Positions 5,775 to 21,059 of a DNA stretch of 35,197 nt are shown in pieces. Position 1 is the stretch's first letter; the number at the start of each line of letters is the position of its first letter. Source of the stretch: Candidatus Treponema merdequi (lineage in GTDB: Bacteria; Spirochaetota; Spirochaetia; Treponematales; Treponemataceae); contig JAGHVB010000071.1 in the NCBI GenBank assembly GCA_018064525.1, positions 1 to 35,197 on the forward strand, read 5' to 3'. The notes under the pieces were generated by a model that saw nothing but the letters and a program-made list of their open reading frames with translations, ran no database searches and was not told where the DNA came from. The position numbers and the translations under genes were made by a program.

Positions 5775-5875
5775 TGACACAACATTTGCAGATACCGATT
5801 GCACTTCGTCTTATGTCTTTTACACTAAAAATTGATTACCGCTCATCAGAACCTCTTTCAGTTTTTGTCTGACTG
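5775..5875. repeat. 101-bp direct repeat, copy A
   Basis: Identical to 7333-7433 at 99 of 101 positions in the same orientation. In this copy an ATG just upstream opens a 32-codon frame (MTQHLQIPIALRLM ... LSVFV) ending inside the repeat, with no clear ribosome-binding site; copy B lacks the ATG. Its identity as gene remnant, regulatory element or mobile unit is not resolved. It lies upstream of SH3 copy 1, as copy B lies upstream of SH3 copy 2. Confidence 0.9.
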
Positions 5876-11301: not shown

Positions 11302-11390
11302 TGACAAATTTTCACTTTTTGTCAAAATTTCTCTTGCAAAATGACATATTCTATGATAATGTCATACTGACAAATATATTAAAACTGTCA
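11302..11390. promoter_or_regulatory. Three TGACA-N13-TGTCA operator-like dyads
   Basis: Three 23-bp dyads occur at 11302-11324, 11342-11364 and 11368-11390. Each is TGACA, exactly 13 bases, then TGTCA. A possible promoter (TTGCAA 11334-11339, GATAAT 11355-11360) is overlapped by the second dyad. This looks like an array for a dimeric repressor controlling the acyl-CoA ligase at 11437. The regulator is not in the window. Confidence 0.75.
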
Positions 11391-11436
11391 TTTTAACTGC
11401 ATAAAATCATGCATTTTACACATTCAGGAGGCCACC

Positions 11437-13395
11437 ATGCCAAAATTCACTTTCAGACAGATGCCTAAAAATCTCGCACTCTTACTTAAAAACCGCGCTG
11501 CAGAACTCGAAGACGCAGTTTTCCAGCGTTCCAAAAATGAAAAAGGGGAATTTCAAAACTATTCTTACAAACGCGTTTACAACGATGTCATTTCGCTTGC
11601 CCTCGCACTCAAAAAAATCGGAATCAAACGCGGAGCCAATGTCGCTCTCATCTCAGACAACCGCCGCGAATGGCTCATCTCTGACTTTGCGCTTTTATCA
11701 CTCGGTGCTGCCGATGTTCCGCGCGGCTGCGATTCAATGGGAAACGAAATCCGCTTTATCATAAACTTTGCTGACTGTGAATTCGGATTTTTTGAAACTC
11801 CGCATCAGCTTGAAAAAGTTTTAGAAAAAAAAGAAGAATGTCCGAATTTTAAAACTGCAATTCTCTTCAACCATCCGAATGCAGACGAAGAAAAAATTAC
11901 AAAAACAAAAAAAGTTAAAGTACTATATTTTGATGAGCTCATGGAACTCGGTAAAACGATTTTCGAAAAAGATACTGAGCTCTACAAAAAGCAGATTGAA
12001 AATGAAATGGAAAAAACACAGCCAGATGACAATGCAACAATCATTTTCACTTCTGGAACAACAGGCGTTCCAAAAGGAGTAATGCTCACACATAAAAATT
12101 ATATGACAGAACTTTCAGTCATCCACAATTTCCTGACATGCAAAGAAGGCGACATCTGGCTCACAATTCTTCCTGTATGGCACAGTTTTGAAAGAATCAT
12201 TCAGTATGTTGTTCCTGTAATGAAATGTTCAATCGCATATTCAAAACCTGTTGCACAGATAATGCTTTCTGACATGCAGGCTGTACGACCTCACTGGATG
12301 TGCGGTGTTCCGCGTTTATGGGAAGGTCTTGCAAATGGTGTCAAAAAAACTATGAACAAAACTGGTGGAATCGTTCTCGCACTTTTCAATTTCTTTACAG
12401 CTGCCGGAAAACTTTATGCCGACTCTAAAGATAAAGTCTGTGGTCATGTCTGCCGGCTTACTAAACGAAATAAATTTTTAGATTTCTTATGCGGAATTAT
12501 TCCATTTCTTTTTCTCTATCCGGTACATGTACTCGGTCATGCTCTTGTATTCAAAAAAATTCTTGCAAAGTTTGGTGGAAGAATTGATGTTGCAGTTTCA
12601 GGAGGAGGAGCTTTACAGAAAGATGTTGACGACTTTTACCGCGCAATCGGATTTAATCTTCTCGAAGGTTATGGTCTTACAGAATGCGCTCCTGTAATCT
12701 CATTCAGAATTCCAAAAGAAGCACGTCCCGGATGTGTCGGAGCAATTTTTCCAACAATAGAATTAAAAGTCTGTCAGGAAGAAAACGGTGTCATCACAGA
12801 CACTGCGCCGCTTGGTCCTGGCAAAAAAGGAATCATTCTTGTTAAATCTGATCAGGTTATGAAAGGATATTACAAAAGACCTGACCTTACAGAAAAAATT
12901 ATTGATAAAGACGGATATCTCAACACAGGCGACATCGGAATAGAAACATTTGATCACGAAATTAAAATTACAGGACGTGCAAAAGACACAATCGTTTTAT
13001 CTGGCGGCGAAAATATAGAACCAGCAGTAATCGAAAGCGCACTTCTGTCGAGCGATTTTATCGAAAGCACTATCGTTCTCGGTCAGGATCAGGCTTATCT
13101 CGGATGCTTAATCGTTCCTTCACGTGACAGCATCGTTGAATTTGCAAAATCAAATAAAATTGATTACGACAATTACGAATCACTTCTCGAATCAGACGAA
13201 GTTAAATCGCTTTTCTCAAAGGAAATCAATTCACTCGTAAGCATTTCAAACGGATTCAGAAGCTGCGAAAAAATCAACAGATTTGCCCTACTTTCAGAAA
13301 GCTTCAAAGTCGGTTCAGAACTTTCTGCAAAACAGGAAATGATGCGCTACAAGATCGTAAAAAAATACGAAAAGCAGGTTTCAACTCTGTTCTAA
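11437..13395 (+). CDS. Long-chain acyl-CoA ligase 1 (AMP-forming)
   Basis: The 652-aa ANL-superfamily enzyme activates a carboxylic acid, most likely a long-chain fatty acid, with ATP and CoA. Visible motifs: phosphate loop TIIFTSGTTGVPKGV (about 201-215), A5 motif EGYGLTECAPV, adenylate motif LNTGDIG, hinge GRAKDTIVLSGGENIEP. Hydrophobic stretches around 350-385 (FLCGIIPFLFLYPVHVLGHAL) are typical of the bacterial FadD15-like branch and suggest membrane contact. GGAGG lies 7 bases before the ATG. Three TGACA/TGTCA dyads in the 200-base upstream gap suggest tight repression. A second, shorter ligase is at 16911-18653. Confidence 0.9.
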   Translation: MPKFTFRQMPKNLALLLKNRAAELEDAVFQRSKNEKGEFQNYSYKRVYNDVISLALALKKIGIKRGANVALISDNRREWLISDFALLSLGAADVPRGCDSMGNEIRFIINFADCEFGFFETPHQLEKVLEKKEECPNFKTAILFNHPNADEEKITKTKKVKVLYFDELMELGKTIFEKDTELYKKQIENEMEKTQPDDNATIIFTSGTTGVPKGVMLTHKNYMTELSVIHNFLTCKEGDIWLTILPVWHSFERIIQYVVPVMKCSIAYSKPVAQIMLSDMQAVRPHWMCGVPRLWEGLANGVKKTMNKTGGIVLALFNFFTAAGKLYADSKDKVCGHVCRLTKRNKFLDFLCGIIPFLFLYPVHVLGHALVFKKILAKFGGRIDVAVSGGGALQKDVDDFYRAIGFNLLEGYGLTECAPVISFRIPKEARPGCVGAIFPTIELKVCQEENGVITDTAPLGPGKKGIILVKSDQVMKGYYKRPDLTEKIIDKDGYLNTGDIGIETFDHEIKITGRAKDTIVLSGGENIEPAVIESALLSSDFIESTIVLGQDQAYLGCLIVPSRDSIVEFAKSNKIDYDNYESLLESDEVKSLFSKEINSLVSISNGFRSCEKINRFALLSESFKVGSELSAKQEMMRYKIVKKYEKQVSTLF

Positions 13396-16863: not shown

Positions 16864-16912
16864 TAAAAAAAAATCCTGCAGAACTTGATTTTGTTTTGCA
16901 GGATTTTTTTTT
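16864..16912. terminator. Bidirectional rho-independent terminator
   Basis: A 9-bp perfect stem (16872-16880 and 16897-16905, 16-base loop) has an A-run on its left (16864-16873, interrupted once at most) and a T-run on its right (16904-16912). It ends both the plus-strand MFS gene and the minus-strand acyl-CoA ligase 2, whose stop codon it touches. Confidence 0.92.
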
Positions 16913-18653
16913 ATTTCTTGTTATAGTTTCTTTTAACTTTTTTTGTCGTTGTCATTTCAAGCGGCTTATCAAGAATTGTAAGTTTTGTAATTCTCTGATA
17001 AGGAAGAAGTGTCTTGTTTACAATGTTGATCTGTTTTAAGATTTCATCGTAAATCATCTGTGCACTTTCCTTATCTTCACGCTTTGCACCGATTCGTTTG
17101 AGCATTGCATCTGACGGATAAACGATTGCTTCAATTTCTTCTGCAGCACTTTCTCTGTCAGGTTTATATCCGGCAATTGTAATCTGTTCCATATCGTCAT
17201 AAAGCTGGAATGCGTTTTCAATTTCTTCAGGGTAAACATTTTTTCCGCCGGCAGTTACAATCATGTTCTTTGCACGACCAGAAAGCATTACATAACCTTC
17301 GCGGTCAATCCAGCCAAGATCCCCTGTCTTAAACCAGCCGTCTTCTGTAAATGTTTCTTTTGTAGCTTCCGGCATATTATAATAACCCTGCATGATCATC
17401 GGACCTTTTACACAGATTTCACCGATTCCATCTTCATCCGGTTCCAGAATTTTAAACTCAACATCGCGAAGATTTTTTCCAACACTTTCAATCTTGAATG
17501 CATAAACAGGATTAAGAGCAATAACAGGAGAAGTTTCTGTCAGACCATATCCCTGAACAAAGTCAATTCCAAGTTCATTGTATGTCTTGAAAACACTTGG
17601 AGCGAGAGGTCCGCCACCGCAGATTGCAATTCGAAGTGTATAAATGTTTGCCTGTTTCAAAACTGCTTTAAACAAAACCTTTCCTGGATTTGCCTTGAAA
17701 ATCTTTTTGATGATATAAGAAAGTCCGAGTAAAAATTTAATCACACCGTAAACAACTGGACCTTTGTCTTTAATTCCTTTCATGATTCCGGCAAGAAGCT
17801 TGTTGAACAAAAGAGGAACGCCAAGAAGCATTGTGATTTTTCCTTCGCGCAGTTCTTTCATCATTTTGCTTACTGCCATGCTTTTTCCAAATACAAGTTC
17901 AGCACCGACAGAAATCGCTTCAATAAATACTGCTGTCATTGTGTAAGCATGATGAATCGGAAGCAGTGCATAGAAAACATCTGTTGAATAGATGTTCATG
18001 TTTGTCTGTGCGTTGAAACAATCTGAAACAAGATTTTTATGAGAAAGCATTACTCCCTTTGGAGTTCCGGTTGTACCGGAAGTAAAAAGGATTGCGGCAA
18101 TGTCATTTTCCTGAGGAAGAGTAATTTTTACTTCTTTGTCTGTTTTCAAAGTATAGACATATTTATCTTCCTGCTTTTTATTAAGGGAATAAACTTTATA
18201 GTCAAACTTCTTTGAAGTAAAATATTCATACTTTTCTGTGTCTACAAAAAAGAATTTTGGTTTTGCAGTATTTAAAAGATTTTCAATTTCTTCATTGTGA
18301 AGTCCATAATCTACAGGACAGATAATTGCTCCGGCGTAAAAAGCAGAAAGATAAACAACTGCCCATTCAGGAGAGTTTTTTCCGCTTACTGCAACTCTGT
18401 CTCCTTTTTTTACACCGTTTGCACTGAGCCATTTTGAAAGCTGATTGATTTTTTCAAAAGCCTGTGAATAAGTGAGTGTATTACGAGTTCCACCAGGACC
18501 ATCAAAATCTGTAAAACAATTATTATCAGGATATCGTTTTACTGTAATACTGAACATTTCGTTCATTGTCGGCCAGGAACCAGTAAAATCTTTTCCTCTG
18601 TAATCTTCAAGCACTTTGTAAGGGTCTGTCTGCTTCATATTGATTGATGCCAT
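16911..18653 (-). CDS. Long-chain acyl-CoA ligase 2 (AMP-forming)
   Basis: The 580-aa ANL enzyme has phosphate loop AAILFTSGTTGTPKGVMLSH, A5 motif QGYGLTETSPVI, FKTGDLGWID, hinge GRAKNMIVTAGGKNVYPEEIE and a C-terminal TTTKKVKR carrying the expected catalytic Lys region. It forms acyl-adenylate then acyl-CoA; chain length is not evident. It differs from ligase 1 in length and N-terminus, so the two are not a recent duplication. GAGGAA lies 6 bases before the ATG and a perfect consensus promoter lies just upstream. Likely a strongly expressed single-gene unit. Confidence 0.9.
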   Translation of the reverse strand: MASINMKQTDPYKVLEDYRGKDFTGSWPTMNEMFSITVKRYPDNNCFTDFDGPGGTRNTLTYSQAFEKINQLSKWLSANGVKKGDRVAVSGKNSPEWAVVYLSAFYAGAIICPVDYGLHNEEIENLLNTAKPKFFFVDTEKYEYFTSKKFDYKVYSLNKKQEDKYVYTLKTDKEVKITLPQENDIAAILFTSGTTGTPKGVMLSHKNLVSDCFNAQTNMNIYSTDVFYALLPIHHAYTMTAVFIEAISVGAELVFGKSMAVSKMMKELREGKITMLLGVPLLFNKLLAGIMKGIKDKGPVVYGVIKFLLGLSYIIKKIFKANPGKVLFKAVLKQANIYTLRIAICGGGPLAPSVFKTYNELGIDFVQGYGLTETSPVIALNPVYAFKIESVGKNLRDVEFKILEPDEDGIGEICVKGPMIMQGYYNMPEATKETFTEDGWFKTGDLGWIDREGYVMLSGRAKNMIVTAGGKNVYPEEIENAFQLYDDMEQITIAGYKPDRESAAEEIEAIVYPSDAMLKRIGAKREDKESAQMIYDEILKQINIVNKTLLPYQRITKLTILDKPLEMTTTKKVKRNYNKK

Positions 18654-18728: not shown

Positions 18729-21059
18729 TTATACAAATCTGCTGAGAATCTGATTCAAATCAGGAATTTTAATCGGTTTTGAAAGATATTCTGAAAATCC
18801 CTTATCCAGATATTCCTGTCTGATTCCCGGATGTTCGTTAGCTGTAAGCGCAATAACCAATGTGTTCTTATTAAGTGAAGATTCCTGAGATTTGATTTTC
18901 TGCATTGTTTCAATTCCATTCATGCCAGGCATAATGTGGTCCATGAATATCATATCAAACTTCTGTTTTTTGCAAAGTTCTATTGCTTCAACTCCACTCG
19001 ACGCCTTCTCAACTTTAATTCCACCCTGAGACAAAAGCGATTCTATTACAACAAGATTAATTTCATTATCATCAACTGCAAGAGCAGTTTTATCTTTGAC
19101 AATAATCACATCGTTATCACTTTTTGTAGAAATAAGTTCGGCACGCTTTGCTTCAAATTTTCCGATCGCTGTTATGTCAACAACTTTCTGTGGAATGTAA
19201 ATTGAAAAACACGAACCTTTTCCATATTCACTTGTAACTTTAATTTCTCCATGCATCAAATCAACAAGTTTCTTCGAAATAGCAAGCCCAAGTCCTGTAC
19301 CCTGAATCGCCTTATTTTTTTCTTCTTCAAGACGCTCAAATGTATCAAACAGTTTAACAATATTTTCTGCCTTAATGCCCTGTCCTGTATCTTTTACTGA
19401 AATTTTAAACAAAACATTTTCTTCATCGATTTCTTCAAAATCTGCCGACACAGTAATACTACCCTGTTCTGTGTATTTTACGGCATTTGAAAGCAGATTC
19501 ATCAAAATCTGTTTAATTCGATATTCATCGCCTTCCATCTTTGACGGAAGACTTTCTGAAATTTCATAACTTACATTCAACCCGCGAAGTGCTGCACTTG
19601 TTTCAAACATATCAAATGTAGAACCAAAAAGTTTTATCGTATCGTAAGGTGCATAAACGAGATTAAGTTTCTTTGCTTCTGCTTTTGAAAAATCAAGAAG
19701 ATCACTGATTACCATGTGTAAAAGTTCACCAGATTTTTCAATCTTTTTTGCATATTCAACAATTTTTGGTTCAGTGGAATTTTTAAGAATATAATCATTT
19801 AACCCAAGAACACCGTTAAGAGGTGTACGAATTTCATGTGAAATGGAAATAAAGAATTTCTCTCGGGCTTCTTTCTGAGAAACAGCTTTAATCTGACGGT
19901 TTTCTATTTCGATAATATCGTTATAAGTAATTTTCAAGGATTCAAACAAAGTAAAGAATAGACCGCTGCTGAGGAAAATTCCAAGAGACTTCAAAGCCCT
20001 CGAATAATTTACAAGGATATTCCCAATAAGTGCAAACAGAAGAAAGATAATCATCGACCAGATCATTCCGGCATAACGCTTTGCATCATGATGAATGATA
20101 TCAGCAACTGTGTTTGAAAGAATTATCAGAAGAGCTACCATACATACACCAAGCATAACCCAGATATAATTAAACAGCTCGATTACATTCAATGCATAAA
20201 GCGTAAATTCCATCACAAGACAAACAACAATCGCACAGAACGCAAAGAAATATGCTTTGTGATATCGTCTTTCCTGAAGAACATCAACGAACAAAAGAAT
20301 TGCCATCATCAAAATCGGAAGATTGTAATAAGTTGATTCTGCAATCGCCGTAAAGTTCGGAAAGAACATCTGTCTTACCGGAGATTCACTCAGAGCAATC
20401 AGAGAGCCAAGCATTACGACCCATCCAGAAGCCTCGATTATCTGGCGCTTTTTATATCGCTTTTGAACAACTACACCACCGATAACCGATATCAAACCAA
20501 GAAAGAACATAATTCCAGAAATTACTGTCTCAATAAAATATGTCCTCATCAGTTTGCCCCAGATTTCATTTTCAGAACCAAGATAAATCTGATTTGTTAA
20601 TCCAGAAAAGTGAGTATAGCTTATTGTTTGAATCTGAACCGTTTTTCCTGCGTCTTCTTTTTTTAACGGACAGAATATATAGCCACTCTGACTGTTTTTA
20701 CCGCCGATTCGCGAATCTTTGGAATCGTATCTATAGCGCAAATTTCCATCGATGTAAAAATCGATATTCTGCTGCGAAGATCTGATACAGATACTTTTAC
20801 CATCTGTAATGTCCTGTGGAATTATTGACTCAACGATGAAAGGTTTACCACGCGGGTTATTTACTTTGTAGCCCTTATTTTCGAAATAGACTTTTGCGCC
20901 AGATTCGTCCCTGTAAAACCATTTTTCAGGATAGGTATTGGCATTAAGCCCTTCCATCGACGTTTCGACCGGGAGAACGCCTTCACTTATAATGAACGCA
21001 ATTATCCCAATAATGAAGAGTATATAAATTACTCTATAGAATATCTTTTGTGTGTTCAA
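18729..21059 (-). CDS. Membrane hybrid histidine kinase with 7TMR-DISM-like sensor and receiver domain
   Basis: The 776-aa signalling protein has a first membrane helix (about 8-28), an extracytoplasmic beta-rich domain (about 35-165) resembling 7TMR-DISM sensors, about seven membrane helices (about 172-375), HisKA with phospho-acceptor H408 (SISHEIRTPLNG), HATPase with N525 and DTGQGI/GTGLGLAI boxes, and a C-terminal receiver with D707 (MIFMDHIMPGMNG). No output domain, so the phosphate probably passes to another protein. The start codon is TTG: no in-frame ATG is near, and a consensus promoter fixes the 5' end about 19 bases upstream. The signal is unknown; neighbours suggest nucleotide or fatty-acid nutrition (weak inference). 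Confidence 0.92.
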   Translation of the reverse strand: MNTQKIFYRVIYILFIIGIIAFIISEGVLPVETSMEGLNANTYPEKWFYRDESGAKVYFENKGYKVNNPRGKPFIVESIIPQDITDGKSICIRSSQQNIDFYIDGNLRYRYDSKDSRIGGKNSQSGYIFCPLKKEDAGKTVQIQTISYTHFSGLTNQIYLGSENEIWGKLMRTYFIETVISGIMFFLGLISVIGGVVVQKRYKKRQIIEASGWVVMLGSLIALSESPVRQMFFPNFTAIAESTYYNLPILMMAILLFVDVLQERRYHKAYFFAFCAIVVCLVMEFTLYALNVIELFNYIWVMLGVCMVALLIILSNTVADIIHHDAKRYAGMIWSMIIFLLFALIGNILVNYSRALKSLGIFLSSGLFFTLFESLKITYNDIIEIENRQIKAVSQKEAREKFFISISHEIRTPLNGVLGLNDYILKNSTEPKIVEYAKKIEKSGELLHMVISDLLDFSKAEAKKLNLVYAPYDTIKLFGSTFDMFETSAALRGLNVSYEISESLPSKMEGDEYRIKQILMNLLSNAVKYTEQGSITVSADFEEIDEENVLFKISVKDTGQGIKAENIVKLFDTFERLEEEKNKAIQGTGLGLAISKKLVDLMHGEIKVTSEYGKGSCFSIYIPQKVVDITAIGKFEAKRAELISTKSDNDVIIVKDKTALAVDDNEINLVVIESLLSQGGIKVEKASSGVEAIELCKKQKFDMIFMDHIMPGMNGIETMQKIKSQESSLNKNTLVIALTANEHPGIRQEYLDKGFSEYLSKPIKIPDLNQILSRFV

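Follow-up and report, generated by a model that had tools for sequence, protein, structure and literature searches.

Three exact copies of the inverted repeat TGACA-N13-TGTCA before a long-chain acyl-CoA ligase gene are, with near certainty, operators of a fatty-acid regulon in Treponema and related spirochaete families. They lie in the window analyzed here, i.e., the whole 35,197-nucleotide stretch that forms contig C28 of the 2.70-Mb draft genome of Candidatus Treponema merdequi. We give a probability of roughly 0.78 to the reading that this three-site array is worked by a conserved, autoregulated TetR-family protein, which would repress by covering the promoter and would take acyl-CoA or acyl-ACP as its ligand.

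The dyads occupy 89 bp of a 202-bp intergenic gap, at 11302–11324, 11342–11364, and 11368–11390, with centers at 11313, 11353, and 11379 and thus steps of 40 and 26 bp; arms, central 13 bases, and steps are all as the preliminary description had them. The features of the gap and its borders are as follows.

ends 11234: YgiQ-type radical SAM gene, bordering the gap with the dyads
11302–11324, no strand: operator site 1, exact dyad TGACA-N13-TGTCA, without the outer YA/TR elements
11333–11338, + strand: alternative −35 register, CTTGCA
11334–11339, + strand: predicted −35, TTGCAA; several orthologues have TTGYA at this place ahead of the dyad
11337–11369, no strand: operator site 2, extended 33-bp form CA-N3-TGACA(11342–11346)-N13-TGTCA(11360–11364)-N3-TG, exact dyad, profile match of 22.5 bits
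11355–11360, + strand: predicted −10, GATAAT, within site 2; TGATAAT-GTCA is conserved in many ligase orthologues
11363–11395, no strand: operator site 3, extended 33-bp form CA-N3-TGACA(11368–11372)-N13-TGTCA(11386–11390)-N3-TA, exact dyad, weaker profile match of 15.4 bits
11426–11431, + strand: ribosome-binding site AGGAGG, by sequence
11437–13395, + strand: long-chain acyl-CoA ligase (AMP-binding enzyme) of 652 amino acids, ATG at 11437 (PF00501, 235.6 bits; PF23562, 42.2 bits)

By its subfamily matches the 652-amino acid protein is a generic long-chain ligase. The 40-bp step corresponds to 3.8 helical turns and the 26-bp step to 2.5 turns, so that sites 2 and 3 face nearly opposite sides of the DNA and not the slightly different faces that had been supposed; their 26-bp step arises because a TGTCA-TAC-TGACA junction is common to both. 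At the genomic background rate, the chance of three exact copies within 89 bp is roughly estimated at 3e-9. Please note that the window holds a second AMP-binding ligase gene (16911–18653, − strand), 3.5 kb downstream and near a hybrid histidine kinase gene (18729–21059), which is without any such site.

Genome-wide, the exact pattern occurs 10 times vs. three times for a reversed control pattern, and spacing 13 accounts for 10 of the 63 arm pairs with spacings of 6–20. When one mismatch was allowed there was no genomic excess (134 vs. 138 for the control), which makes such a scan uninformative when taken alone; the signal thus resides in the exact sites and their context, and lone imperfect matches mean nothing. 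Nine of the ten exact copies, the three window sites and six elsewhere, lie before lipid genes, for which the chance is about 1e-21 with the upstream space of lipid genes deliberately set on the generous side; a genome scan for such enrichment had been proposed beforehand, and this is its outcome. The copies outside the window are listed below; genes are named from Pfam matches or, if so marked, from our reading of the sequence.

C7:3047: before a second AMP-binding ligase gene of the regulon
C7:5813, plus a one-mismatch site at 5849: before fabF-fabV
C32:30356: before an acyl-CoA carboxyltransferase gene
C78:124257: before fabZ
C78:126233: before fabD-fabG
C82:21446: before an acyl-ACP thioesterase gene
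C17:33244: within a flagellar reading frame, presumably fliF-like from its gene neighborhood

The copy at C17:33244 was rejected as a regulon site and is taken as chance, being in a coding region and missing from the profile matches. Between the second ligase gene and fabF, both of which bear the operator, an XRE regulator gene and a PIN-domain-like gene (toxin-antitoxin-like) are situated (C7:4909–5792). When the genome was searched with a sequence profile of the site, the exact lipid-gene sites ranked highest, and further matches were found at four places.

C43:122502: before a PF01553 acyltransferase gene
C63:4883/4915: weak pair before rpmF-acpP-rnc
C14:35504: before a third ligase gene; near noise by score, resting on its position
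C37:45394, TTACA-N13-TGTAA: before the operon of the TetR regulator discussed below; likewise near noise by score and resting on position

Relatives keep these sites. In the nearest one, Candidatus Treponema scatequi (ligase 91% identical), all three are present at the same spacings and site 1 is identical; 30/30 arm positions match those of the window, compared with 27/39 in the site interiors and 71/105 over all non-arm positions, i.e., the arms are what is kept. Two more distant loci (L037 and L074, ligase identity 63% and 59%) retain two sites 40 bp apart, one of those in L074 with a mismatch, and 13 further ligase-orthologue loci retain one. Across the regions upstream of 44 ligase orthologues, which were collected through protein similarity and without use of the motif, arm pairs occur at spacing 13 (19 pairs in 16 loci) and at 21 (two pairs), and at no other spacing from 0 to 30. 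The pattern was neither frequent at random sites nor absent in relatives, the two outcomes that the preliminary description had named as speaking against it.

It is very hard to believe that the dyads act as RNA hairpins or terminators instead of protein sites. They are inverted repeats ahead of a start codon, but 5-base arms with 13-base loops would be weak, no terminator-like site was found, the arms are invariant and not compensating, with no covariation, and for most genes the sites are placed on the promoter.

The same gene classes recur among the fetched relative loci, where 78 distinct exact sites were counted and 39 of them stand before a core fatty-acid gene or a ligase gene: carboxyltransferase (7), fabH (5), fabD (4), fabF (4), fabV (4), fabZ (1), thioesterase (2), and ligases (12). 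Other sites precede outer-membrane beta-barrel genes (4), the TetR operon (2), and provisional others (4), and much of the remainder is inside reading frames. Total exact sites exceed the control both in the genus (170 vs. 89) and in other families (51 vs. 10), although sites in genomes that are related do not arise independently, so that such counts overstate the number of independent observations. In distant families, sites are found before fabH, an acyl-ACP thioesterase gene, and a ligase gene (L226, L217, L221). The outer-membrane gene was considered as FadL, and this was set aside, since nothing more specific than a generic beta-barrel was matched. Steps of 26, 40, and 66 bp are reused at multi-site promoters of unrelated genes and species (the window; L025, L219, L037, L074, L091): the 26-bp pair also stands before genes for outer-membrane proteins in a further two genomes (L025, L219), and in G036 fabV is preceded by a 66-bp pair.

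The plain dyad had been taken as the whole motif; its exact arms stand, and the motif extends beyond them. Extended elements were derived from 73 sites. A Y-A pair outside each arm, after three free bases, is present in 97/146 cases at lipid-gene sites vs. 11/58 at unassigned sites, and A/T (WW) at +7,+8 in 145/146 vs. 43/58; neither feature played any part in picking the lipid-gene sites. The outer YA/TR element occurs as often on the promoter-upstream side as on the downstream one (43/68 each), which makes it part of the operator and not of a −35. TGTCA at N3 is exact in 13 of 148 flanks, the highest count of all offsets, followed by six at N17, which come from neighboring dyads; the outer element thus reads as a weak, degenerate inverted half-site. 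The complete element reads as TKTYA-N3-TGACA-N13-TGTCA-N3-TRAMA; the weak outer half-sites bring the operator to about 33 bp. A compact TGTCA-N3-TGACA was tried as the basic unit and discarded, since it is not enriched (4 vs. 3).

These properties bear on whether the dyads are mere promoter elements, with TGACA as a −35 and TGTCATAAT as an extended −10, recurring before genes generally. ATGACA-N16-CATACT is itself a promoter-like match; against this, the ten copies are nearly confined to lipid genes and promoters of other genes lack them, the arms are exactly mirrored, the outer elements are equal on both sides, and the three copies could not each be the promoter. We regard this as highly improbable and, given the gene distribution of the copies, in the main refuted.

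Operators of TetR proteins span 22–32 bp where two dimers bind and 15–17 bp for single dimers (PMC4150764). The element described here, at about 33 bp, is near the two-dimer length, which makes two dimers per site the likelier guess, and by analogy two TetR dimers probably occupy each operator. Two points count against the main reading: for a single TetR dimer, 18 bp between half-sites is a wide distance, and the outer half-sites are weak. QacR, CgmR, MS6564, and CprB provide the precedent, binding 22–32-bp operators with two dimers (PMC4150764), although their targets and sequences differ from those here, where two-dimer binding is proposed from sequence. Operators of the dimer-of-dimers kind carry two inverted repeats that overlap or adjoin; the 33-bp element here has its weak outer half-sites at N3. 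Accordingly, of the dimeric repressor of fatty-acid activation that was first proposed, a regulator with sites at lipid genes survives (9/10 copies), whereas its scope has widened to synthesis plus activation and the outer half-sites suggest two dimers.

The candidate for this regulator is encoded behind an RlmL-like RNA methyltransferase gene:

G000:C37:46667–47251: TetR-family regulator gene

The candidate carries a TetR_N helix-turn-helix domain (PF00440, 58 bits; cut-off 24). Orthologues exist in 38 of 39 genomes, the exception being a 61%-complete genome, and it is the only TetR conserved throughout. In T. berlinense (G018) and in G001, a site lies before the operon of the RlmL-like RNA methyltransferase and the TetR regulator. 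Over 23 genus genomes, the region upstream of this operon has an exact dyad in eight, one with one mismatch in five, and one with two mismatches in five (18/23, with this genome among them); the remaining five have no site of ≤2 mismatches there. The dyad takes one of two alternative places, either over a conserved, −35-like TTGAAC word (TGACAATTGAACAAAATnTGTMA; TTACAATTGAACAAAATCTGTAA in this genome) or farther on, over a −10-like region that adjoins the ATG. Turnover of this kind within one promoter is the trace that selection for autoregulation would be expected to leave. The RlmL-like gene heads the TetR operon throughout the genus (L113, L138:269–2085).

The case that this conserved, seemingly autoregulated TetR is the binder of the operator is strong but circumstantial; it is drawn from where the sites lie and from conservation. 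We think it unlikely, though worth weighing, that another transcription factor binds the operators of the fatty-acid regulon and that the TetR gene is merely one target. The TetR link is positional, single sites have other small regulators nearby (in L096, an XRE gene), and some genomes have the TetR without exact sites, as in G026, G032, and G034. These genomes, and the five genus members that lack a site before the TetR operon, also count against the main reading. Against this, no other regulator gene was seen with a site in several genomes, as the TetR operon was, and the sole TetR conserved throughout resembles fatty-acid regulators. A recognition-helix change (TTLYIY to TILYLY) was considered to explain the site-less genomes and was dropped, because sites before fabH are present as well in genomes where the helix is changed.

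The resemblance is one of family and not of identity. The best family model for the TetR is Bacillus FadR (NF053878), at 63.7 bits, and as this lies below the curated cut-off of 200 bits we do not file it as FadR; two orthologues score 42.6 and 52.4 bits, and no protein in the genome exceeds the NF053878 cut-off. The FasR model (NF053731) gives 36.1 bits with a cut-off of 330. Among solved structures, the top-listed matches are an unnamed TetR and Bacillus FadR (PDB 3whb, 5gp9). Like the candidate, Bacillus FadR has the TetR fold, and it acts on an acyl-CoA ligase gene, as the candidate would; it governs beta-oxidation, whereas the regulon here comprises fab, carboxyltransferase, thioesterase, and ligase genes, i.e., synthesis plus activation. 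The Bacillus FadR operator, a compact 17-bp palindrome, would be unlike TGACA-N13-TGTCA. FabR, FabT, FapR, and GntR-type FadR share with the present system the global control of bacterial fatty-acid synthesis; FapR, FabT, and GntR-FadR, however, belong to other protein families, and their sites are not known to match TGACA-N13-TGTCA. Mycobacterial FasR is similar in being a TetR regulator of fatty-acid synthesis with several inverted repeats in one promoter and, as proposed for the candidate, in its release by long acyl-CoA (PMC7382501), and it differs in being an activator, actinobacterial, and a weak family match to the candidate.

We propose that the TetR represses the ligase promoter. The predicted promoter, TTGCAw-N15/16-GATAAT around site 2, is conserved in many ligase orthologues. 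Site 2 would cover its spacer and −10 and site 3 the start region, which makes repression by occlusion a suitable mechanism; site 1, at about −65 to −43 and always 40 bp farther upstream, would probably contribute cooperativity. The releasing ligand is probably acyl-CoA, by analogy with the TetR relatives FadRSa (PMC6449355), FasR (PMC7382501), and MbdR (PMC4424350); acyl-CoA is also the ligand of Bacillus FadR (PMC6449355). Changes in the acyl-CoA (or acyl-ACP) end products would then change binding, and the genes for synthesis and activation would be adjusted together.

That the same regulator and regulon work by activation, as with FasR or MabR of actinobacteria, seems to us improbable, somewhat more so than a different binder. 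The lipid regulators FasR (TetR) and MabR (non-TetR) do activate (PMC5541348, PMC7382501), and that FasR-type TetR proteins activate instead of repressing also weighs against our main reading; site 1, moreover, is upstream of the predicted promoter. On the other hand, sites 2 and 3 cover the −10 and the start region, and before the TetR operon −35-like or −10-like words lie under the dyad, which can directly adjoin the ATG.

Going further than repression by promoter cover, we tentatively entertain, as possible but doubtful, a global spirochaete regulator, undescribed so far and acting across several families of the order, with two TetR dimers on a new 33–39-bp operator of four half-sites and cooperative binding on arrays whose steps are fixed at 26, 40, and 66 bp. 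If this were true, promoters such as that of the ligase would read lipid status as a sharp switch.

A spirochaete fatty-acid regulator of this kind was not found in open-access papers, and control of membrane-lipid supply in spirochaetes seems undescribed in that literature. The regulator, operator, and regulon appear to be new, while TetR-type lipid regulators are already a known kind. What is supplied here is an operator of defined sequence, a list of regulon members, and a single candidate for the regulator. In gut and rumen treponemes, one control would govern de novo synthesis together with the import and activation of exogenous fatty acids (ligases, an outer-membrane protein).

Some neighborhoods deserve a mention of their own. 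In several genomes from families f3 and f4 (L146, L149, L153, L209), the TetR orthologue adjoins a gene that we take, from reading its sequence, to be lipA-like, in place of the RNA methyltransferase gene; the lipA pathway uses octanoyl-ACP, and this arrangement suggests a tie between lipoate and fatty-acid control. An exact dyad precedes what we read from the sequence as an iron-type alcohol dehydrogenase-like gene in two genomes (L028, L029), a possible further regulon member. In G036 (L087, L088, L089), near-identical dyads of the form TGACATATTT...ATGTCA appear several times in intergenic DNA, away from lipid genes, and are perhaps a mobile or repeated element.
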